From: a virus
Strand: one strand, 5' to 3'
IMG/VR virus record: IMGVR_UViG_3300037963_000192
Location: 1 to 39,068 of that record
DNA: 39,068 nucleotides
Part shown: in pieces, positions 7,855-39,068 of the stretch
Layout: each line of letters starts with the position of its first letter
Position numbering within the stretch: position 1 is the first letter of the stretch
Position numbers and translations under genes: made by a program
Notes under the pieces: model-generated
Databases searched by the model: none
What the model was told of the DNA's origin: nothing
Seen by the model: the letters and a program-made list of their open reading frames with translations, nothing else

Positions 7855-8520
7855 ATGTCAAAATTTTATGTTCCTAAAGAAAAGGAAGAATACTTAGCAC
7901 CTTTTGGTCCTATAATGGGATATAAGGCAATGTCGGATTCATTTATTAAAAATATGAATGAAGCAATGAGTCCTGATTTGGAAGATTGGTCTGACAAATT
8001 AGTAGGTAAAGTTAAACAAGAATTAAAGTTTGATAAAAAAATTGAACAACTATTCTTAAATGAATTTTCTCAGTTTATTGGTAAGTTAAATAACTTTGCA
8101 GAATACAGACATTCTTTTGGTGCTAAAAAATTAGATACTAAAAATAATAATTATGGTGTTCAAATTGCCTCAGGGTGGTTTGTAAGACAATTTGAAAATG
8201 AATATAACCCAATCCATATACACACAGGTGCAAGAATGTCTTGTGTTGGATACTTATCTTTACCCGACGGTATTGAAAAAGAATGGGAACAAGACTATAA
8301 AGACCATCATCCTGCAAATGGACATATACAATTTGTACACGGTACTCCATCAGGATATAGTCAAACTAATTTTATGGTTAAACCACGAGTAGGAGATTTT
8401 TATGTTTTTCCTGCAAAATTATTTCACTGTGTTTATCCATTTAAAACTAAAGGAGAAAGACGTTCCTTTAGTGTTAACTTTAACTTTATTGAAGTTCCTA
8501 AAGAAAAAGTTGACAAGTAG
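7855..8520 (+). CDS. 2-oxoglutarate/Fe(II)-dependent oxygenase-like protein
   Basis: 221 residues; GGA before the ATG, nine bases after the scaffold-like gene. The C-terminal half shows the double-stranded beta-helix pattern of 2OG/Fe(II) dioxygenases of the phage/T4-like group: WFVRQFENEYNPIHIHTGA with H121 and H123 as metal ligands, GYLSLPDG, a turn with GHIQFVHG, then PRVGDFYVFPAKLFHCVYPF with H191 as the distal ligand and ERRSFSVNFNF with R202/R203 for 2-oxoglutarate binding. H-x-H replaces the commoner H-x-D. Such enzymes hydroxylate proteins, nucleic acids or small molecules with O2 and 2-oxoglutarate; the substrate here is unknown. Lying between scaffold and capsid genes, it may modify a virion protein or simply be a co-expressed host-takeover gene. 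N-terminal 85 residues are helical and unassigned. Confidence 0.7.
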   Translation: MSKFYVPKEKEEYLAPFGPIMGYKAMSDSFIKNMNEAMSPDLEDWSDKLVGKVKQELKFDKKIEQLFLNEFSQFIGKLNNFAEYRHSFGAKKLDTKNNNYGVQIASGWFVRQFENEYNPIHIHTGARMSCVGYLSLPDGIEKEWEQDYKDHHPANGHIQFVHGTPSGYSQTNFMVKPRVGDFYVFPAKLFHCVYPFKTKGERRSFSVNFNFIEVPKEKVDK

Positions 8521-8590: not shown

Positions 8591-8745
8591 TTTACATGAC
8601 TTTAAAGATTACCCAATTATGTGAGCCTACTGAAGACTAGCTATCTAACGTACAACCTCAATGCATGAATGGTCCTTATAAAGTAAAATGACTAAAAATA
8701 GCATACCTTTGTATGTGTGTGATAAATGTTATAAAGGAGATTATA

Positions 8746-9822
8746 ATGGCATTTACAGCAGCATCAGGTTATGGTAATCTACCTAACGGTAATTTTAGTC
8801 CTATTATTTACAGCAAACAGGTGCAACTTGCATTTCGCAAAGCATCTATTGTTGACGCAATCACTAATAACGACTACTTTGGTGAAATTGCTAATATGGG
8901 CGATTCTGTTAAGGTTATCAAAGAACCTGAAATTACCGTCAAGTCTTATGCTAGAGGTACAACTATTACACCTCAAGACCTTGACGATGAAGAGTTCTCA
9001 TTAACTATTGATAAAGCTAATTACTTTGCTTTCAAGGTTGATGATATTGAAGAAGCTCACTCTCACGTAAACTTTTCTGCACTAGCAAGTGACAGAGCAG
9101 CTTACAGACTAGCCGACCAATTTGACCAAGATGTGCTTGGTTATTTGTCAGGATTTAAGCAATCGGCAATACACGGTACACCAGACACTGCAAATACTAC
9201 AGTGAATGGAGTTAAAGCAGTATCTACTGCAGGTTCAGACGAACTATTGTCATCTATGAAATTAGATGCAAGTGACTTTACTGATGGTTCAGGAACTGCA
9301 GGTAGTGCGAGTAATAGTATTATTGTTCAGCCTAGAACAGGTGGAGCAACTGATGCTACTCCTGCTGCAGGAAGTACCTATCCATTGACTGTGATTGCTA
9401 GAATGGCAAGAAAGCTAGACCAACAGAATGTAGATACTAATGGTCGTTGGCTTGTACTTGACCCTGTATTTATTGAACTATTAAAGGATGAAGATTCAAG
9501 ACTATTCCAAGCTGATTGGGGTGGAACAGGACTTCAGAATGGTTTAGTTCTAAATAACTTACATGGGTTTAAGGTTTATCAATCCAATAACCTACCTGCA
9601 GTCGGAACTGGTCCTGCAACTGCCGCTGCTTCAAATACCTCTAACTATGGTATTATCGTAGCAGGGCATAGCTCATCTGTAGCTACTGCAGAGCAAATCA
9701 ACAAGACAGAGACTTATAGAGACCCTGATTCTTTTGCTGATATTGTTCGTGGTATGCATTTGTATGGCAGAAAGATTCTCAGACCTGAAGCAATCTGTAC
9801 TGCAATCTATAACATAGCGTAA
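8746..9822 (+). CDS. Major capsid protein
   Basis: 358 residues. I chose the ATG at 8746 because AAGGAG lies seven bases upstream and the protein then begins MAFTAASGYGNLPNGNFSP, the usual start of marine podovirus capsid proteins; the frame extends 11 codons further up without a good start. The sequence has the HK97-type layout: an N-terminal segment, IYSKQVQLAFRKASIVDAIT (about residues 24-43), GDSVKVIKEPEITVKSYARG, and the helix region VDDIEEAHSHVNFSALASDR near 102-121. The middle (about 145-210) is Gly/Thr/Ser-rich with alternating beta strands. It would form the icosahedral shell, with scaffold and portal encoded upstream and a likely decoration protein 14 bases downstream. No frameshift extension (T7 10A/10B type) is evident. 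Confidence 0.88.
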   Translation: MAFTAASGYGNLPNGNFSPIIYSKQVQLAFRKASIVDAITNNDYFGEIANMGDSVKVIKEPEITVKSYARGTTITPQDLDDEEFSLTIDKANYFAFKVDDIEEAHSHVNFSALASDRAAYRLADQFDQDVLGYLSGFKQSAIHGTPDTANTTVNGVKAVSTAGSDELLSSMKLDASDFTDGSGTAGSASNSIIVQPRTGGATDATPAAGSTYPLTVIARMARKLDQQNVDTNGRWLVLDPVFIELLKDEDSRLFQADWGGTGLQNGLVLNNLHGFKVYQSNNLPAVGTGPATAAASNTSNYGIIVAGHSSSVATAEQINKTETYRDPDSFADIVRGMHLYGRKILRPEAICTAIYNIA

Positions 9823-13800: not shown

Positions 13801-14019
13801 AAAAAACCAAGTGGGGGTTCATACAGTTCTGTTACAGGAACTACTGCAGTTACGTATAATAGAACTAATAACTTAGGAGATCAAACTTCAAGTATTGATT
13901 TTTTAATTAGTGTAACAAGTGGTGATACATATAAGGTTATGGTTAAACGACAAGGTGGCTCTGGGGATTTAGAAGTACAGGGGAACGGAACAAGATTTAA
14001 TATTCAGGAAGTTAATTAA
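10882..14019 (+). CDS. Tail fibre protein 1 with C-terminal jelly-roll-like domain
   Basis: 1045 residues. The N-terminal 100 residues (ILSDRVKETTTTTGTGTYTL; VGFESFASIGNSNTTYYCCT) form a domain I recognise at the start of many phage fibre proteins, probably for attachment to the virion. A long beta-repeat shaft follows, with VTGNASGTAATVTGAAQTNI, and repeated ATVTG-x-L blocks (near 12265, 12690) combined with TLEIGGTDVTATATELN-type segments. The last 140 residues, after a DPTADRAINLPDAAGTVALK linker, have the strand pattern of a C1q/TNF-like trimeric head. It would recognise or bind the host surface. No chaperone (S74-type) cleavage domain is seen. Unusually, it sits between the capsid and tail-tube genes rather than after the tail-tube genes as in T7. 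Confidence 0.75.
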   Translation: MALILSDRVKETTTTTGTGTYTLGGAVVGFESFASIGNSNTTYYCCTDGTDFEVGIGTYTSSGTTLARTTILQSSNSDSAVNWSAGTKEIFCTLPAEKAVVEDASNNINGTFVGDITGNVTGNASGTAATVTGAAQTNITSVGTLTGLTTSGTINLSQTSGVAIKTTGNLSTADLTLLRASASTDGEFGFDIKYVGSRTGNDNSYSLFMHNQTGTDVEAMTVLQDGKVGINNTSPSAPLDVSGDAEITGTLTAGEVSATTLDIGGTNITATATEINKLDGVNTLVSSSGAINTDASAEIGRVHVGHVGWDDFAGFSHVDQNTQTTYSLLQASSGKTYLNSASGQTTALRINNSTVVDIASDGATVTGKLDAGILEGKGGVTYDPPGSSGTDTATDVAVAVHSGDRIVLGENGFIRTIVDATWGSALQIGQSGTGAFTGTEIYGGNDGVTLKHSTNTKLETTATGATVTGELKTTTLEIGGTDVTATATELNYVDVTTLGTVEASKAVTADSGADVTFPSGSQIITTSDGSNAVISVRGGGPNFIEFLDNTSTTDGVKLAYRTTPHDLRIERTVNSNIIAEFGGDDGHAALYHDNSIKLETTANGATVTGTLVADGVTLGDSEEVQFGAGTDLRIYHNGSHSFIREQGTGDLKIQSTNLSIELGNGTLLLDTNDSTNAVQLYDNGELRLRTTDTGIDVLCEDSDGSSDNTANIRIVSEGTNEILTLRSNDGVGSYIIRNGSSHGDHLFQSFDGSSTTNLFRLTTTGHTFEQDVTVNGDLTTDEVFVGDTTDHKIGKVNHTYGDGIGLTTDDGTVTIGQANSSYTHYFNSNNVPHWFNKQVIADGGFSVWGTNDNLTLKAGGVIFEGATADSHETTLNVVDPTADRAINLPDAAGTVALKSEYFQAYRSSDSAALTSSFVIIDFDTITLNSNGSVFSESGGEVTINKTGIFRFHTDVTVRTDSGSSRSDAEIEIQKKPSGGSYSSVTGTTAVTYNRTNNLGDQTSSIDFLISVTSGDTYKVMVKRQGGSGDLEVQGNGTRFNIQEVN

Positions 14020-14021
14020 CT

Positions 14022-14819
14022 ATGGCATTTTCAACTTTACCATTTAGCCACGTACCTTTTTCTACTGATAAGAACGTATTAATAGTATTAGAAGGATTCA
14101 GTGCAAAGTCTAGTATAAGTACAGATACAATAGGTAAAAACGATAGTTTAATTGTATCAGAATCTGTTTCATCAAAGATTGCTTTAAATACTGATGATAC
14201 AGAAATTCTAGTTACAGAAAATATACCAGAAGAAGAGACTGCTAGTACCGAAGTAAATATAGGGTTAAGCACTGTTAAAAATGACTCTATTATAGTAGCA
14301 GAGGCTATAAGCACTAAAACTAATACACCTTCAGTTTTTGACCCTACTGTTTTTGGTTCAGTAGGTTTACAAGCATCAGGTGTAACTTTTGACTTTAATG
14401 CAGTACGAGATGCATTCTCACAGACTAGAACAGTATATGTAGAAAGACAAACTACATCACTAGATAGAACAGTTAATGTTTCTGATGTAGCACGAACTAC
14501 ATTTGTCAGTAGACAAACTACAACAAAAGATAGAACTGTTTCTATACCTTTTGAAGACAGAACAGTAAAGGTAGCAAGACAAACTACATCATCAGATAGA
14601 ACTATATTAGTTTCAGATGTAAATAGAGTGGTATATATAGAGCCACAAACAACATCATCAGAAAGAACTGTATTAGTTTCAAAAGTGGCTAGAATAGCTT
14701 TTGTTGATAGGCAGACTTCTTCTTCAGATAGAAAGGTGCTTGTACCTTTTGAAGATCGAAGAGTATATGTAGAAAGACAAACAACGAGTGCCGAAAGAAC
14801 GGTAAGAGTAGCAGCATAG
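14022..14819 (+). CDS. Virion-arm protein with six 22-residue repeats, unknown
   Basis: 265 residues. The gene follows fibre 1 by two bases, with GGAAG upstream. The N-terminal 110 residues contain weak beta repeats (DSLIVSESVSSK; DSIIVAEAISTK). A short linker (about 111-136) is followed by six copies of a 22-residue unit, the last one truncated to 19 (14430-14816), with consensus 'x-V-x-V-x-R-Q-T-T-S-S-D-R-T-V-x-V-x-x-x-x-R'. This alternating V-x-V pattern suggests a solenoid or stacked strands, with Arg and Thr on the outer face. No known family was recognised. The place between a fibre and a small Ig-like protein suggests a part of the fibre or neck. A long minus-strand reading frame covers the same region but is judged a shadow. 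Confidence 0.6.
   Translation: MAFSTLPFSHVPFSTDKNVLIVLEGFSAKSSISTDTIGKNDSLIVSESVSSKIALNTDDTEILVTENIPEEETASTEVNIGLSTVKNDSIIVAEAISTKTNTPSVFDPTVFGSVGLQASGVTFDFNAVRDAFSQTRTVYVERQTTSLDRTVNVSDVARTTFVSRQTTTKDRTVSIPFEDRTVKVARQTTSSDRTILVSDVNRVVYIEPQTTSSERTVLVSKVARIAFVDRQTSSSDRKVLVPFEDRRVYVERQTTSAERTVRVAA
14430..14816 (+). repeat. Six tandem 66-base (22-codon) repeats
   Basis: Units start at 14430, 14496, 14562, 14628, 14694 and 14760; the last has 19 codons before the stop. Each contains RQTT or a near variant (PQTT, RQTS), followed by an Asp/Glu-Arg pair, and ends in Arg. The units alternate between SDVAR-type and PFEDR-type endings: copies 1, 3 and 4 end in SDVAR, SDVNR and SKVAR, copies 2 and 5 in PFEDR. 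DNA identity between units is only partial, so the repeats are old or under protein-level constraint. Confidence 0.85.
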
Positions 14820-14828
14820 GAGATAGCA

Positions 14829-15152
14829 ATGTCATTTAGATGGCCCAATAAAGACCCTGACGAACAATTAGACTATAGTATTGATTGGTCAAGATTCCTT
14901 GGAACTGCCACAATAAGTAGCGTGGTATGGTCAGTCAATAATTCAAGTGGAGTAAAGACCACCATAAGTGGTGGTGCTACAGTAAATGGTATACAAAATG
15001 TATCCCAAACACAAAGTAGTGATAATCAAACTGCAACAATAAATTTAGGTTCGGGAACAAACAACACAGAATATACTTTTTTTTGTAGGATTACAGATAA
15101 TTCAGGAAGTCAAGCAGAACGAAGTGTTAAACTTAAAGTGAGGGAAAAATAA
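14829..15152 (+). CDS. Small Ig-like protein of the phage gp77/fibre-tail adaptor type
   Basis: 107 residues, ATG with GGAG upstream; its TAATG stop overlaps the next gene by one base. It starts SFRWPNKDPDEQLDYSIDWS, followed by RFLGTATISSVVWSV, a Thr/Gly-rich middle, and ends TFFCRITDNSGSQAERSVKL. The pattern 'W-x-x-K-D-P-D-x-x-L-D-Y-x-x-D-W-x-x-x-L-G-x-x-x-I' with a final 'R-I-T-x-x-x-G-x-x-x-x-R-S-x-x-L' is shared by a family in many tailed phages that is sometimes called gp77 or fibre-tail adaptor and has an Ig-like beta sandwich. Direct coupling to the tail-tube gene is consistent with a head-tail or fibre-attachment role. The family assignment is from memory of the motif. Confidence 0.6.
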   Translation: MSFRWPNKDPDEQLDYSIDWSRFLGTATISSVVWSVNNSSGVKTTISGGATVNGIQNVSQTQSSDNQTATINLGSGTNNTEYTFFCRITDNSGSQAERSVKLKVREK

Positions 15153-31200: not shown

Positions 31201-31672
31201 ATTAACTCCACAAGAGCCAAGAAATACTGCACAAAAAGAATTAGATAGATTGAGATTAGATTATGTAGAAGTAGCACCTAGAAAGTTAGGAGACCCTGAG
31301 GCTAATAGAGATGCTAGACTATTTACTGGATATGCCCTTGAAGGCTACTTAGCAGACTATATAAATAGTCCTGAGTATCGTGCTTTAAAAAATGATTATC
31401 AAAAAAAGAAAGCATTAAAAATAGAAATGGCTAACATAAAAAATGAGGCATTGGCTTATGCTTTAAAAGAACAAGATTGGGATACATCAGAAGATATAGA
31501 AAGAAAAAATAAAGCTCGTTATCTTAAACTTAGATCATTAGATAGAAAAATAATAGAAAGAGAATGGAAAGACAGAAATCCTAATGACGAATTAGGACAA
31601 GATGATTATGGGGAATTATTAGACATAGGATTAGATTTAAGACTTATTAAAAGCAAACCTATATTGAAGTAA
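28232..31672 (+). CDS. Large internal virion (ejection) protein
   Basis: 1146 residues; GAGG upstream, one base after the previous stop; it is the last gene of the plus arm. The N-terminal 90 residues are charged. Residues about 108-240 have several Gly/Ala-rich amphipathic or hydrophobic stretches (APSTYAGMFSFGAGKGGALA; AAIGAGVVDALGAAGTVAAQ; VAFAGAIGFLPGSLIGGFTG) that could insert into a membrane. The middle has long helices and DFTYQTGRFKGRKGGFNTFA; the region near 715-740 (FINIFSSKLGSAFVPFPRYM) recalls a domain of phage polyvalent proteins, though I cannot name it safely. The C-terminus is strongly charged. No lytic transglycosylase motif is recognised, unlike T7 gp16. It is likely packaged in the capsid core and ejected with DNA. 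The 3' end overlaps the opposite-strand gene by 14 bases. Confidence 0.65.
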   Translation: MLEDYTTFPKEKLTRENLVKNFKFISDARAFLADREDYYSDDPNEVYDRYLEHFRYQNVNEVTAVRDMYQAQDYQRKGNIKGLDRMGRLMDTFDKQDSEFTSETLTDYLGGIFTAPSTYAGMFSFGAGKGGALAAQQGIKFGIKEIIKNGAKVEGKNLTTGALKKAGNYSRLKALREGFANGGYKAAIGAGVVDALGAAGTVAAQEETRVTYDPTREFDNSNVAFAGAIGFLPGSLIGGFTGSQKAITSNAAEAYLQNAMKENRKLIQSSYKNHTYKNLNDTGSVGKLTRDLNSKLKKVALSESAEESLKLGKKLKIDLAPERGTLLSFDSKLIANISSAGAELLNKIGPAPNVTKGSREDLEERITAKIARGFNSPNEADRNAMVESFQGILKKYNLTAQEFGALYLAEISEAGRTLGVQGRIAKKEVKELFGNLTEIDKGLYTLGRTTEIAREGIRKNADRGNFLNSIDDFFTSLNKTRIGLMTIQLATTVRNTTNGYLRNYVYGLNNFNAGVLRQVKAGALLTAGFLRKPTFNLSDDSLKRAGTFASKEGVADLKNAWSSAYLKDMVLGMQSEDTAVLVKMFRDPRLGNSEKAVELFRSLGDIGNATSSRIGTQNSRMMRTASFLNGFNTFSDNMFKAAIFSRELNKLISLDAGDVFKKNGINNLSDLVSQGKLKMMDDKAIASAMQQAMDFTYQTGRFKGRKGGFNTFADGFINIFSSKLGSAFVPFPRYMINAFRFAYEHAPIVGLYDAGGILNKAGGIDRLSKQITGLTTLTAFYGMREQLGDETTGAYQYKNPFGHGTFDARAALGPFTPFAALADYLYRLGKPKGYFEREYGFRLHDNDKVSEKMSIRELSTSLTGGAFGRAGVSLDMIDGLAKVLAQEGNLSDQTKFSEAGARFAGNYLSTFVVGAGMIKDVYAMTNPEYRLLTDNTDVEFVPYMLKQATRSFPMEAHADGDGFFERPVQTSPYKSSGIMNHMPLFRQISGLTPQEPRNTAQKELDRLRLDYVEVAPRKLGDPEANRDARLFTGYALEGYLADYINSPEYRALKNDYQKKKALKIEMANIKNEALAYALKEQDWDTSEDIERKNKARYLKLRSLDRKIIEREWKDRNPNDELGQDDYGELLDIGLDLRLIKSKPILK

Positions 31673-31910
31673 TATATCTAAGTATACCCATTAACAAAGC
31701 AGTACACGCTACTCCGTTAACAAAAAGTAATGCTCTATCGTGCCAAAGATAAGCCATACCTGCAAGGCATGCAGTGCCTACGCAAGAGGATATTAGATCG
31801 TAGAAGGGAAACACACCTACTGCCCTGCATATTATCCCTGACACGATGAACATTGAACCTACCCATTTTAAATACCAAGATAGGTCATGAGTTGGAGTTA
31901 TTTTTTGCAT
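31659..31910 (-). CDS. Small membrane protein with three hydrophobic segments (possible holin)
   Basis: 83 residues, the last gene of the minus arm. It begins MQKITPTHDLSWYLKWVGSM and has three hydrophobic segments: about 12-33, 38-54 and 61-82 (WVGSMFIVSGIICRAVGV; LISSCVGTACLAGMAYLW; LLFVNGVACTALLMGILRY). WHDRALLFVNGVA between segments two and three is a pattern I recognise from small membrane proteins of marine podoviruses. Size and layout match a class I holin, but the sequence alone cannot prove this, and no endolysin is seen nearby. Its start lies within the 3' end of the upstream gene (26-base overlap), and its stop overlaps the opposing gene by 14 bases. The ATG has AAGGAG upstream. 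Confidence 0.55.
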   Translation of the reverse strand: MQKITPTHDLSWYLKWVGSMFIVSGIICRAVGVFPFYDLISSCVGTACLAGMAYLWHDRALLFVNGVACTALLMGILRYITSI

Positions 31911-32478: not shown

Positions 32479-34437
32479 TTAACTAGCTTCAATATCAACA
32501 ATCTCGCATACACCCGCAGTGCAAGCAAGTTCTTTACTGCCACTTGTGCTGTCTTCTTTTTCAAAGTCTCTTAACTTTTTCCAATCAATAGAAGGTGGCA
32601 TTTTATCCATAAGTTTTTTGTATTCTTTTTCATCTATGTCCTGATAAGGTGCTTGTTTGTATGTATGTTCACTAAAAGGCAGAAAGGAAATACCCGATAC
32701 TGAATCAAAATTTTCATACACCCAAGCACCCACTTCCATCCATTCATGCTCTTTAACAGAAACAGTTATTGATGGTTTATGTTCGCACCAATACTTCTGA
32801 TATTTCAACCAAAAGTTTAACTGTTCTATAGCAGTCATGGCTGTCCGTGTCACTGCACCTGATGGTGCTTTCATTGGGAAACTAAAAACTACCACACTAT
32901 CAGGTTTCATAACATCAGGTTCATTAGGAATTTTAGACTCTTTCATAAACTGTGTCAAGGGATCTTTATTATCTCCTCTAACAGTTCTGACATAATATGG
33001 ATTATGTCTTGCATGAATGCCACTAGCACTATCAACTAACTGTGAAACAGTTCCTGAAGGCTTAACACAAGTTATAGCAGTTGATTGTGGTATTCCTAAA
33101 TCTTTGGCTATCTTTTTATTTGTCTCAACAGCTACGTTTTTTAACTCTGTTAAAGTAGTTTCTAAGTTTGGATTATCTTTTAATACTTCACAATCTAATA
33201 TGCCTGTAAGTGAAACACCTAATAGTCTTTCTTCTTCAGTGTTGTCCTTCCATACTTTGCGTAAATATTTAAATTCCGTAAGAGTAGATTGAAATGTGCC
33301 TAAAATTGTAGCTAATCTAACTTTCTCTTTTAATGAATTAATATCATCTTGTTCACGTGCAACAACTTCAGTTAAATTACAAAATTGATATGGTCTTAGT
33401 ATTATCTCACTGCAAGGATTACAACCAAATTGTATGTAATCTAAAGGTAACACAGGCTTTTCTACCAAAGCATATTTTCTTCTTTTATTTTTAGCTGCTT
33501 GTTTGATAGCTGATTCTCTATTAAAAATGCCACGCTCTCCTGATTTAGATTCATATAAAGCTGTCCACTCTCTCATAAATGTACCCATCTCAGGTTTACC
33601 TTTAAATGCTACAGAGTTATTAGCTAATGCTCTTTGCCCTTCATTCTCCCACCATTGTCCTGACTTTGCATGTCTCATTTGATCATCACCTAAATTAGAT
33701 AAAGATATAAGTGCAGAACGTCTAACACCACCAACAACTACAACTTCACCTATCTTGCACATGATGTCATGACATTCAATAGGATATAATCTTCTGCCTG
33801 CAGCTTTTTTAAATATAGCAACACAAAAATTATATAAATCGACTAAAGGTTGAGGGCCGCTTGCTCTACCTCCAAATGTTTTTAATCTTGCACCTGCGGG
33901 TCTTACTTGTGACACATCAAGTGATGGGATTTGACCTACATATAACATAGCAATAAGCTCACGAGTTGCCCTTGCCCATCCGGGTCTACTGTCAGCAACA
34001 GTTATTACAGTTGTACTATTTTCAAAATGCTCATTGACTACAGGTAGTTTATCTACATTCTCTCTTTCAACAGAGAATCCTACACCTGTACCACACATAA
34101 GGATATACATACACTCATCAAATGAACGAGGACTATCAACAGGTATGTAACTGCAATTATAACCTGCAACATGACATCTGTCTAAAGCAACACCTGCTGT
34201 CATTAATGCTCTCATACTAGGCATGACACCTAAAGACATAATACTGTCAGACAATTTCTGACGCAAAGCTTTTGTTAAAACATAATTATGTTTACTAAAT
34301 AAATGATTATCCATGTAATCAAAATATCTTCCTACGGTTTCAGCCCATGTTTCTCTTCTTTGCTCATCATCTTTCCATCTTGCATATCTAGATAGTGCAA
34401 TAAAGTTTTGATAATCTGTTGGTAAATAATTGTTCAC
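32479..34437 (-). CDS. Class II (adenosylcobalamin-dependent) ribonucleotide reductase, single chain
   Basis: 652 residues with a GTG start, AAGGAG upstream; the GTG follows the stop of the 55-aa gene directly. It reduces ribonucleoside triphosphates to deoxy forms with a B12-derived radical. Motifs fit the monomeric RTPR of Lactobacillus leichmannii (739 aa): NPCSE at 340-344 with the thiyl-radical Cys C342 and its partners N340 and E344; C353 exactly 11 residues on (PYQFCNL) and C95 (AGYNCSYIPVD), the redox pair; and a C-terminal shuttle pair C639/C644 (CTAGVC). GVGFSVERENVDKLP and SGTVSQLVDSASGIHARHNP are further conserved blocks. No R2 radical subunit (class I) or glycyl-radical activase (class III) gene is nearby. 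The phage would rely on host B12. The gene joins the replication arm, feeding dNTPs to the polymerase. Confidence 0.9.
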   Translation of the reverse strand: MNNYLPTDYQNFIALSRYARWKDDEQRRETWAETVGRYFDYMDNHLFSKHNYVLTKALRQKLSDSIMSLGVMPSMRALMTAGVALDRCHVAGYNCSYIPVDSPRSFDECMYILMCGTGVGFSVERENVDKLPVVNEHFENSTTVITVADSRPGWARATRELIAMLYVGQIPSLDVSQVRPAGARLKTFGGRASGPQPLVDLYNFCVAIFKKAAGRRLYPIECHDIMCKIGEVVVVGGVRRSALISLSNLGDDQMRHAKSGQWWENEGQRALANNSVAFKGKPEMGTFMREWTALYESKSGERGIFNRESAIKQAAKNKRRKYALVEKPVLPLDYIQFGCNPCSEIILRPYQFCNLTEVVAREQDDINSLKEKVRLATILGTFQSTLTEFKYLRKVWKDNTEEERLLGVSLTGILDCEVLKDNPNLETTLTELKNVAVETNKKIAKDLGIPQSTAITCVKPSGTVSQLVDSASGIHARHNPYYVRTVRGDNKDPLTQFMKESKIPNEPDVMKPDSVVVFSFPMKAPSGAVTRTAMTAIEQLNFWLKYQKYWCEHKPSITVSVKEHEWMEVGAWVYENFDSVSGISFLPFSEHTYKQAPYQDIDEKEYKKLMDKMPPSIDWKKLRDFEKEDSTSGSKELACTAGVCEIVDIEAS

Positions 34438-35670: not shown

Positions 35671-36417
35671 TTACTTCCATATTTTAGTTGCTTCTTTTTT
35701 CATCCTATCAGACCACATCCACGAATCTGTATTAGGATACTCTAAGTTAGCTAATTCTTCTTTATCATCACTTAACGATAAAAATCTTTGTATTGTTAAA
35801 GCTGCTTTCTTCAGTTGATTCTTGTATTTATCTAATGATTTTAAAATAAACTTTTTATGATCTTTAGGACTAACAAAAAACAAATGCATCTTCTTGTCTG
35901 GATAAGCCATTGAATATAAAGCCATTTGTCTAAGTTGTGCTTCTGTAGGTTGACTTGGCAACCTAGTTGTTGTTTTTAAATCGACTACAGTGTCATCAAA
36001 CAAAAAATCAACGTAGCCAATAATAGGAATCGGAAAGTCATCTAACATCACCTCTACTCTTTCTTGATATCCTTTTACCTTAGGATATTTGAAGTTTTCA
36101 TCTATAACTTCGCCAAACTTTACTAATGACTTTCTTTCTTTTTCACACTTAGGTTCTGCAAGATCAATGCCAACTTCAGCACATAAAGAGATAAACTTTT
36201 TATCTAAGCCATCAAAATCAAATGTTCCTTTTTCTTGTTTCTCAGATAAAGTGTGCTCTAAGGCTATACCTCTTAAAGCACTTGCTCCACCTGATGATTT
36301 CATGCCAAACAAATATCGCATAACCCATAAAGGTTTGTCATTGATATATGTATTTATACTACTTGGAGATAAATAATTTATGTTATGGACACTAAAGGGA
36401 TTATTAGATTTAGCCAC
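35671..36417 (-). CDS. PD-(D/E)XK (RecB/Cas4-like) exonuclease
   Basis: 248 residues with a GTG start; the start overlaps the upstream stop by one base (TAGTG). Catalytic motifs of the RecB/Cas4-like family are visible: ALRGIALEHTL with E54, IPIIGYVDFLFDDTVVDLKT with D137 and D146-x-K148, and the QMALY motif (Q164, Y168) that follows in these nucleases. There are only two Cys, far apart, so no iron-sulphur cluster of the Cas4 type is expected. The N-terminus begins VHNINYLSPSSINTYINDKP. It would be a single-strand or end-processing exonuclease for recombination or host-DNA degradation, the counterpart of T7 gp6, which belongs to another fold. It lies between the SSB-like gene and the resolvase. 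Confidence 0.82.
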   Translation of the reverse strand: MAKSNNPFSVHNINYLSPSSINTYINDKPLWVMRYLFGMKSSGGASALRGIALEHTLSEKQEKGTFDFDGLDKKFISLCAEVGIDLAEPKCEKERKSLVKFGEVIDENFKYPKVKGYQERVEVMLDDFPIPIIGYVDFLFDDTVVDLKTTTRLPSQPTEAQLRQMALYSMAYPDKKMHLFFVSPKDHKKFILKSLDKYKNQLKKAALTIQRFLSLSDDKEELANLEYPNTDSWMWSDRMKKEATKIWK

Positions 36418-37346
36418 TACTTATCAACATCAATGTCTATAAAATCCTCTACAGTTTCTACATCAGCGGCAGAAGGATTCTTTTGTTCAGTTTGAACTTT
36501 TTCTTCCCATTGCTTACAGATGTAATCATTAAAGTTCTTTATAAAATCATTGAAGTCGTGAAATAGTTTTTCGTCTTCTTCTGTTATCTCAAACTCCTCA
36601 CTAAAATCTACTTTAGCAGTTGGAGTATAAAACTTACTTCCATTAGGTAATGGATTCTCTATAGTGTTATCAAAATGCAAAACATACTGTAGTGGTAGTT
36701 TTGATTTAGCTGAATATTCAGCAAACCTATCACCTAAAGTTTTAAATGCATCCTTGTTATCAATCTCCCAAATAAAAGGATAAGCTGCAGTTACTTTATC
36801 GCCTACAGGCTGACCATTTTGATCTACTGCATCTTCCAAAGATACTGTTCCAAATATAACTCTAACTCTTTTAATTTGCCTAATTAAGTCTTGCATGTCT
36901 GGAGAAAGAGCTTTGAAATCTTCTACATAACCTGAAGGCTTGCCACAATTAAACTTTCCTGTGTTATCTTTTAAATCCATATTTAAACTATCTGCCATAA
37001 TAGTTCTATGAAAAGAACCTTTAGGTTGCCCTTCTTTAGCACCCATGTTAGCAACGTATCTTCTTAACATAAACCTTTGCATAAAAGGTCTGAGCGTCAT
37101 AGTCTTTGCATATATAAACTCTGATCCATCTTCGCCAACTAATTCAAGACGATAGCTACCACCTTCTATTATCTCAACATTGGATAGCTTGCCATTGACT
37201 TCTACTTGACCCATAACAGGTGAATGCCAAATTCTTAATCTATTTAAATTGCTTGTTTTCTTAGGAACTTTCCTATCTGTAGCTATACCCATTGCTCTTG
37301 CAAGGTTTTCGTAGCTATCAGTTCTTATGTTTGCTAATTCATTCAT
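36417..37346 (-). CDS. Probable single-stranded-DNA-binding protein
   Basis: 309 residues; AAGGAG upstream of the ATG, the gene overlaps the next by one base. It starts MNELANIRTDSYENLARAMG and includes LNRLRIWHSPVMGQVEVNGK, EGGSYRLELVGEDGSEFIYA and PYMQR-like FMQRFMLRRYVANMGAKEGQ. The centre is strand-rich (VRVIFGTVSLEDAVDQNGQP; TAAYPFIWEIDNKDAFKTLG). The C-terminal 60 residues are strongly acidic, ending in ADVETVEDFIDIDVDK, as in T7 gp2.5 and other SSBs whose acidic tails bind partner proteins. There is no clear OB-fold signature by eye. The place between polymerase and exonuclease supports an SSB; an alternative is a replication-accessory protein. Confidence 0.6.
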   Translation of the reverse strand: MNELANIRTDSYENLARAMGIATDRKVPKKTSNLNRLRIWHSPVMGQVEVNGKLSNVEIIEGGSYRLELVGEDGSEFIYAKTMTLRPFMQRFMLRRYVANMGAKEGQPKGSFHRTIMADSLNMDLKDNTGKFNCGKPSGYVEDFKALSPDMQDLIRQIKRVRVIFGTVSLEDAVDQNGQPVGDKVTAAYPFIWEIDNKDAFKTLGDRFAEYSAKSKLPLQYVLHFDNTIENPLPNGSKFYTPTAKVDFSEEFEITEEDEKLFHDFNDFIKNFNDYICKQWEEKVQTEQKNPSAADVETVEDFIDIDVDK

Positions 37347-37379: not shown

Positions 37380-39068
37380 TCACGAGACATCTTTTGTGTC
37401 AAGCCAGTTGTTGCCCATCTTAGCCTCCAACAACAAAGGTATATTAAAATCAATATTATACTCTCTATCAATAATTGATTTCATATCTGTGTTTACAGAT
37501 TTAATGATGTACAATACCTGTTTCTCTTCTTCGGGGTGTACATCAATTACAATTGAATCATGAACTGTGTTCACAATACAAGACTTACAAGTTGATAACC
37601 TTTTATCTATTTCCATTAATATCAATGGCACAATGTCTGCAGTTGCGAAACTTTGTACTGGATAATTTTTTATCTGTGTAAAATTACTAACTGAACCATT
37701 TCTTCTTCTTTGTATATTTGGAAAAGAAAACTCTCTGCCTGATGGTATCTTAATTTTATTTGTTGTTACAGCCTCTTTAGCCAATCGGGAATGCCAAACT
37801 GCGATCCCTTTGTACTTTTTCGTGAACTGTTCGTAGTACGAAGCCTCAGCTTCCGTTCTTCCAAATCCTGTCGCACCATACAACGGAGCAAAGGTATGTG
37901 CTTTAGCTTCTTGCCTAGTCGTGAACTGACCTGATTTCGTAATAACGTCAGCAGTGTACGAATGTACATCAAACCCTGTTTTAACTTCATTTATTGCTAC
38001 CTCATCTTGTGATAAATATGCGGCTGTTCTAAACTCTAACTGTGCAAAGTCAGCCTCTAAAATCTTGCCGCCTTCCCAACGTGAAACAAAAACCTTCTTA
38101 ACTGGAAACGTGCCACCTCTAGGCATGTTCTGCATGTTAGGATCTGCTCCACTAAATCTTCCTGTCGCTGTTCTATGTTGTAATAGTCTTACATGTAACA
38201 TTCCATCTTCCTTTGTGTGTACTTTTATTCCCTCTACAAAAGATGATAAGTATGTATCTAATGCTGACAATCTCTGTATATCAGTTAAAAAGTTAAAAGC
38301 CATTGTTGAGTTTGTCCTCTTTGTGACATGTTGTAAAACTTCTAACATTTTTTTATTAACACTAAATCCGTTTGCACTTGCCCATTTTACATTTGGTGGA
38401 TTAAATTTAAACCCTGCAATCCTATCTTGCTTGACAAAGATGTAGCCATTGCCTGAGCACTCAGCACATTTAGGAAGTCTTGCATAGGGTGTTCCATCCT
38501 TTTTAACTTTATGTATTAATCCTGATCCACCACAAGTATGGCACTTTTCAGCTTTAGTTTTGTATATGATATCTGTATTCATTTTTACCAAGTTGGTAAA
38601 TTTTGCTTTATCCATGTGTGGTTCAAAGTTATTCATCCAAGTTGTTTTATCTTTTGGTTTTCTACTGTAAAGAATCCAAGACATTTGTTCTGGACTATTG
38701 AGATTGATAGGAGTGTCGCCCATTAAATCTTTTACTTGTATCTTTAATCTTTGTTCTATCTCTAACTTTTCTTTTTGAAACTCTGTCTCTACAGATTTAA
38801 GTGTATCTGTATCAACCTTAAACCCCCTACGGTATATCTTTGCTAATGCTACAGATACTTTGTTGGTAAAAACAACTGTGCTCATAAGTCCTGCGTCTTG
38901 TTCAGAGTTTAATCTTTTATTTTGTAAATTGCAAAGCTCTTGAGTTGCATGCAGATCAGCAGATAAATATTCTTTTAATTCATCTCTTGGTATGCCGTCT
39001 ACACCTACACCTTGATCGAAGTAATGTTTTAGTGTTCCTTCTTTCTTTGTCGGTAGATCATGTCTTAT
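37380..39068 (-). CDS. polA: DNA polymerase family A (5' part outside window)
   Basis: The frame is open past the window edge; 562 codons plus stop are visible, and the apparent ATG start at 38885 is internal. Upstream of it lies EYLSADLHATQEL, which fits the Exo III motif of the 3'-5' proofreading domain. Residues below are counted from the ATG at 38885. The palm motifs are present: TATGRFSGADPNMQNMP (239-255); motif A ILEADFAQLEFR with D279; motif B RQEAKAHTFAPLYG with R324, K328, F332 and Y336; QSFATAD; and motif C NTVHDS with H442-D443, where Ser444 replaces the usual Glu. Phe332 is at the E. coli 762 site. A zinc-binding-like insert with C115, C118, C140 and C143 lies in the thumb region. 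The helicase-primase was not seen and probably lies outside the window. Confidence 0.92.
   Translation of the reverse strand: MRHDLPTKKEGTLKHYFDQGVGVDGIPRDELKEYLSADLHATQELCNLQNKRLNSEQDAGLMSTVVFTNKVSVALAKIYRRGFKVDTDTLKSVETEFQKEKLEIEQRLKIQVKDLMGDTPINLNSPEQMSWILYSRKPKDKTTWMNNFEPHMDKAKFTNLVKMNTDIIYKTKAEKCHTCGGSGLIHKVKKDGTPYARLPKCAECSGNGYIFVKQDRIAGFKFNPPNVKWASANGFSVNKKMLEVLQHVTKRTNSTMAFNFLTDIQRLSALDTYLSSFVEGIKVHTKEDGMLHVRLLQHRTATGRFSGADPNMQNMPRGGTFPVKKVFVSRWEGGKILEADFAQLEFRTAAYLSQDEVAINEVKTGFDVHSYTADVITKSGQFTTRQEAKAHTFAPLYGATGFGRTEAEASYYEQFTKKYKGIAVWHSRLAKEAVTTNKIKIPSGREFSFPNIQRRRNGSVSNFTQIKNYPVQSFATADIVPLILMEIDKRLSTCKSCIVNTVHDSIVIDVHPEEEKQVLYIIKSVNTDMKSIIDREYNIDFNIPLLLEAKMGNNWLDTKDVS
38445..38543 (-). 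other. Zinc-ribbon-like CxxC...CxxC insert in the polymerase
   Basis: Residues 115-147 (from the internal ATG at 38885) read CHTCGGSG, a 17-residue basic spacer, and CAECSGNG. The CxxCxGxG form is that of the DnaJ-type zinc module. It lies between NLNSPEQMSWIL (the conserved thumb start) and FSVNKKMLEVL, where cellular family A polymerases have no zinc site. Zinc binding is inferred. Confidence 0.75.

Follow-up and report, generated by a model that had tools for sequence, protein, structure and literature searches.

A conserved putative zinc knuckle at the predicted thumb tip of the family A DNA polymerase of HMO-2011-type marine phages

The DNA polymerases of HMO-2011-type phages (HMO-2011, CRP-1, CRP-2, CRP-3, HTVC033P and others) have been described as holding two CXXCXGXG motifs in a 'partial DnaJ central domain', a feature used as a criterion for recognising the group (PMC9038755, PMC6918029). 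An alignment of the motif for CRP-1 to CRP-3 has been given (PMC6918029), the role of DnaJ in lambda replication has been mentioned as context (PMC9038755), and the GenBank record of HMO-2011 (GU557055) annotates PF00684 on the polymerase ADW08435.1. The knuckle is, in other words, already known as a defining trait of these phages, while in the literature searched no report was found of a functional test of it, be it for metal, DNA binding or processivity. To this knowledge we add the conservation of the ligands together with the variants at the third cysteine, the placement of the module in the H1-H2 loop that forms the thumb tip, a Lys-rich segment at the same site in the sister clade, and a knuckle in the polymerase of phage ctsHD2.

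Thumb inserts are also on record for eukaryotic family A polymerases of repair and organelles, namely human Pol theta and the plant organellar AtPolI, whose Lys-rich insertion 1 a homology model sets against dsDNA (PMC7699545). These inserts involve no zinc and no sequence similarity to them is shown; they constitute a parallel and not a relative of the phage module.

The window analysed here is the whole stretch of 39,068 nucleotides of the IMG/VR record IMGVR_UViG_3300037963_000192. On sequence grounds it is part of an HMO-2011-type marine phage genome, because the full-length identity of its polymerase, its gene order and a well-supported polymerase clade all assign it to this group. Specifically, the best full-length relatives of the polymerase are those of Roseobacter phage CRP-1 (62%), Puniceispirillum phage HMO-2011 (61%) and CRP-345 (61%), and further HMO-2011-group polymerases match it down to about 37% identity. 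The replication module runs in the HMO-2011 order, with the polymerase followed by gp13, endonuclease I (65% identity to that of HMO-2011), a DUF3310 protein (53%) and the ribonucleotide reductase (Table 1). A phylogeny of 44 polymerases recovers the HMO-2011 type as a single clade (support 98/99), in which the nearest sequence to the window polymerase is L003, and the sister of this clade (99/98) consists of autographivirus-like and Zobellviridae phage polymerases. The window ORF is 5'-truncated at the end of the record, and the N-terminal part with exonuclease motifs I and II is missing. Nothing essential distinguishes the protein from the described HMO-2011-type polymerases, with which it shares the family, the two CXXCXGXG motifs and their place before the polymerase domain; the published accounts locate the motifs between the exonuclease and polymerase domains, and our alignments specify this position further as the tip of the thumb.

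Table 1. Features of the polymerase locus and of neighbouring replication genes in the window
Feature	Position	Strand	Evidence
Family A DNA polymerase, HMO-2011 type, 562 aa	37380..39068	-	PF00476 1.3e-51; 61% full-length identity to HMO-2011 DNA polymerase
Predicted thumb-tip extension, residues 135-238, between H1 and H2, containing the knuckle	38355..38666	-	Klenow profile gap; AF2 of L003; T7/Pol I alignment
Putative zinc knuckle CHTCGGSG-x17-CAECSGNG, residues 176-208	38445..38543	-	PF00684 2.8e-4; Cys conservation
Putative basic hairpin tip HKVKK, residues 186-190	38499..38513	-	Family consensus RKxKK then DG
Remaining thumb, palm and fingers, residues 231-556	37401..38378	-	PF00476 match
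gp13 homologue (HMO-2011)	36417..37346	-	tblastn 47%, 8e-80; follows the polymerase directly here and in HMO-2011, with the same order and strand
B12-dependent ribonucleotide reductase	32479..34437	-	72% identity, syntenic with HMO-2011 gp18; PF21995 and PF02867

The first-pass annotation had described a DnaJ-type zinc module inserted in a family A polymerase and composed of two CxxCxGxG units. The module is indeed there: residues 176-208 (CHTCGGSGLIHKVKKDGTPYARLPKCAECSGNG), encoded exactly at 38445-38543 on the minus strand, read CHTCGGSG-LIHKVKKDGTPYARLPK-CAECSGNG, with the first unit starting at C176 and the second at C201. Both units are present and both are strict, but they do not represent two modules; they make one four-Cys knuckle, probably with one zinc. 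Shuffling the window protein 200,000 times produced two motifs in 0/200,000 cases and one motif in 48/200,000. The match to the DnaJ central domain PF00684 covers residues 171-211, precedes that to PF00476 in the chain and reaches 21.5 bits against a gathering score of 32.7.

The resemblance to DnaJ (Hsp40) and to Anti-TRAP (PF15777) lies in the CxxCxGxG pairs, in the DnaJ inner-pair spacing and in weak profile and sequence matches. However, the HMO polymerase has two of the four DnaJ motifs and stays below the gathering score for both families. For L003, Anti-TRAP scores above DnaJ, which indicates that 'DnaJ' stands for a likeness and not for an identity. In addition, no match to a J domain with its HPD motif appeared in the window protein or in the full-length relatives scanned. 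A true DnaJ domain was rejected on these grounds: no J domain, two motifs instead of four, and a score short of the threshold.

The proposal depended on the cysteines being conserved in close homologues, and this is what was observed. Among the 92 close relatives (the window, 80 IMG/VR sequences and 11 isolates), Cys1, Cys2 and Cys4 are kept in 92/92 and Cys3 in 87/92. A wider survey covered 200 polymerases, 198 complete and two partial. All four cysteines are found in 193 of the 198 complete sequences (126 as strict double motifs, 63 as relaxed ones and 4 recognised by eye), and in the remaining five Asp or His stands in place of Cys3. Departures from the second CXXCXGXG are frequent, both units being strict in 126/198. 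CRP-235-type loci also retain the motif. TGT and TGC are mixed at each of the four positions, indicating that it is the residue and not the codon that is kept. Regarding the five exceptions, Cys3 is replaced by Asp in L027, L040, L044 and L071 and by His in L068. All four Asp variants, which may be kin, show a His at position 212, 11 residues beyond the Cys3 site, compared with 0/87 of the sequences with Cys3. A natural swap of zinc ligands, in which the change to Asp is accompanied by the new His, is possible in these four proteins. The Asp or His at Cys3 and the shared His 212 fit metal binding, supporting it without deciding the matter. The four conserved positions are likely metal ligands, and the metal would be zinc.

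Conservation between the two Cys pairs is highest at basic residues: K/R at 187 and at 189 in 92/92 close relatives each, and K190 in 91/92. They are followed by G192, present in 92/92, and the tip has the nearly invariant motif [RK]K-x-[KR]K-[DN]G. The hairpin is 12 residues longer in one subclade, CRP-738 included.

The position of the module was established by profile comparison, alignment and a structure model. The match of the HMO profile to Klenow runs through NLNSPEQ/FNLSSTKQLQTILFEKQ (E. coli residues 578-594) and breaks off at Klenow residue 594, which is chain position 271; it is taken up again at chain position 328, with 149 profile positions standing against 56 in Klenow. The predicted insert site thus falls at the thumb tip, flanked by helices H1 and H2, and corresponds to about E. 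coli Pol I residues 595-616. In the AF2 model of full-length L003, 80% identical to the window protein and with a mean pLDDT of 82, helices were found at residues 198-227 (H), 237-245 (H1), 350-362 (H2) and 366-395 (I), named by alignment to Pol I and T7 rather than by superposition, and two strands (280-286 and 320-328) flank the zinc motif; pLDDT falls below 50 at residues 405-431, and the overall placement of domains in the model is inexact. By alignment and in the model, the H1-H2 loop is lengthened by about 90 residues. The 'thumb region' of the first-pass annotation was therefore the right part of the enzyme, and the H1-H2 tip is the exact place.

The same annotation had suggested that the insert could be a clamp or partner-binding device replacing thioredoxin, with reference to the thumb loop of T7 DNA polymerase, likewise a family A phage replicase with a thumb insert, plausibly for processivity. 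In T7 the thioredoxin-binding loop lies between H and H1, before FNPSSRDHI (334-342), and shows no sequence similarity to the HMO knuckle. In contrast, the knuckle follows NLNSPEQM, between H1 and H2, at a position equivalent by alignment to about T7 353-368, and HMO enzymes have at H-H1 a short MGDTPI link only, with no T7-type thioredoxin loop. An insertion at the T7 loop site was rejected on this alignment, and the idea of a thioredoxin replacement fails as stated, because the two sites differ.

The sister clade of autographivirus-like and Zobellviridae polymerases (L130-L209, Alteromonas H4/4, RHEph08, Vibrio Saratov-12) also has an extra, often Lys-rich segment between H1 and H2, commonly SGKxxGExKxK followed by a P..W....YST stretch. 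Unlike the HMO-2011-type insert, it is without knuckle or CxxC pairs, and its middle is without clear homology to the knuckle. When zinc and non-zinc thumb inserts were compared by local HH alignment, the C-terminal flank alone matched, and the inserts aligned across the whole thumb only in forced global mode. Our comparison points to an insert site common to the two clades, and we make no claim for homology of the insert cores. The Lys-rich segment of the sister clade suggests that phage polymerases commonly use the thumb tip as a site for additional positive charge.

Bacterial Pol I grips the primer-template duplex with its thumb tip, the H1-H2 loop lying against the duplex, and deletion of the Klenow thumb-tip residues ~590-613 reportedly lowers DNA affinity, processivity and frameshift fidelity. 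Judged from its position, a role of the knuckle in DNA grip or processivity is plausible. We propose, with about an even chance of being right, that the knuckle is a zinc-stapled basic hairpin, which lengthens the thumb tip and raises processivity without thioredoxin. Specifically, two beta-strands in the lengthened tip would carry the DnaJ/Anti-TRAP-like four-Cys knuckle, and the turn of the knuckle would present the near-invariant basic motif. Zinc would staple a rigid hairpin reaching over the new duplex and gripping the backbone, and this contact would hold the enzyme on DNA, providing processivity, and possibly strand displacement, without thioredoxin or any other clamp.

Alternatively, the knuckle could bind the phage helicase, primase, SSB or a host protein and so tether the polymerase in the replisome, comparable to the T7 loop with thioredoxin or the DnaJ zinc centre with its clients; we consider this less likely. 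The zinc knuckles of DnaJ and Anti-TRAP act in protein-protein contacts, and the profile similarity of the phage module to both families is in favour of docking, but its most conserved non-Cys residues are basic, at a site which faces DNA in Pol I. The core genes of these phages include those for helicase, primase and polymerase (PMC9038755), which would also suit a replisome tether, yet the knuckle is not at the thioredoxin-loop site and no partner protein is indicated. The window record yielded no thioredoxin gene and glutaredoxin occurs in just 2/6 records searched, so that neither is tied to the knuckle trait, although a host factor could still take this part.

It also appears rather improbable that zinc merely stabilises a thumb extension derived by drift, with no direct role towards DNA or a partner. 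The Cys-free segment of the sister clade at the same site and the frequent degeneration of the second CXXCXGXG would agree with such a purely structural staple; nevertheless, a mere staple would not require so nearly invariant a basic tip and G192, and the module persists in relatives down to ~37% identity. Finally, although CxxC pairs can in general serve redox or other-metal roles and some group members encode glutaredoxin, a redox switch or another metal (e.g. iron-sulphur) at the four cysteines is very improbable, since zinc agrees with the CxxCxGxG spacing and with the replacements C-to-H and C-to-D(+H), and Asp or His would be incompatible with a disulphide.

Outside the published group, where we did not meet the knuckle in the literature searched, the very divergent polymerase of phage ctsHD2 from a freshwater spring (MW202816, L095:3212-5401) carries CPECDGGG...CKPCQGTG at the colinear thumb site. 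This polymerase falls outside the HMO clade in the tree, on a very long branch, and, with this long branch, the AU test does not reject (p = 0.199) that ctsHD2 and the HMO clade owe the zinc trait to one origin. No relatives of the ctsHD2 polymerase were found in phages or viral_contigs. Several candidates for the same type of insert were rejected: pelagiphage Autographiviridae polymerases, which match the ctsHD2 insert weakly, have no CxxC at all; MT838406 has a single CxxCxGxG in another protein; the LM 4-11-1 contig encodes a real DnaJ; and in PaBG the double motif is absent.

Extending the zinc-stapled DNA-gripping hairpin to these lineages, we tentatively put forward, as a possible but doubtful generalisation, that the knuckle is an intrinsic processivity clamp and belongs to a set of interchangeable devices at the tip (zinc knuckle or Lys-rich segment) through which family A phage replicases dispense with thioredoxin, the zinc form having been gained more than once or having moved between lineages, as in the HMO-2011 clade and ctsHD2. 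HMO-2011-type phages are reportedly among the dominant marine viral groups, and their replicase would accordingly copy much marine DNA. Should the knuckle act as an intrinsic processivity device, this would account for the replication of ~55 kb genomes by an enzyme that lacks a thioredoxin-type loop, and the knuckle might yield a portable part for engineered polymerases.

In addition, some observations were made on the sequences compared. In Vibrio phage Saratov-12 (L087:1569-3662), the family A polymerase is split in two adjacent ORFs just before palm motif A, the first ending with NLQNISN and the next starting with MSDIKRC, which may reflect either a split gene or the sequencing; a two-feature polymerase match of the same kind is also found in Saratov-15 and Rostov-5342. 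HMO-2011-type contigs L290, L291 and L293-L296 lie within MAGs named Flavobacteriales, Neomarinimicrobiota, Euryarchaeota and Rhodobiaceae. These are probably misbinned phage DNA, because an identical contig occurs in two MAGs, and does so twice (L290/L291 and L294/L295).

Elsewhere in the window, positions 14022-14819 (+) encode a repetitive protein with a recurring xRQTTSSDRTVxV unit, for which no Pfam match was obtained and where no DNA tandem repeat was called; a 278-aa frame lies opposite, at 14012-14848 (-). A small protein matching DUF6552 (8e-12), encoded at 31659-31910 (-), is located near the junction of two oppositely transcribed gene blocks, and a putative 2OG-Fe(II) oxygenase (PF13759, 2.6e-17) is encoded at 7855-8520 (+), just upstream of the gene at 8713-9822.
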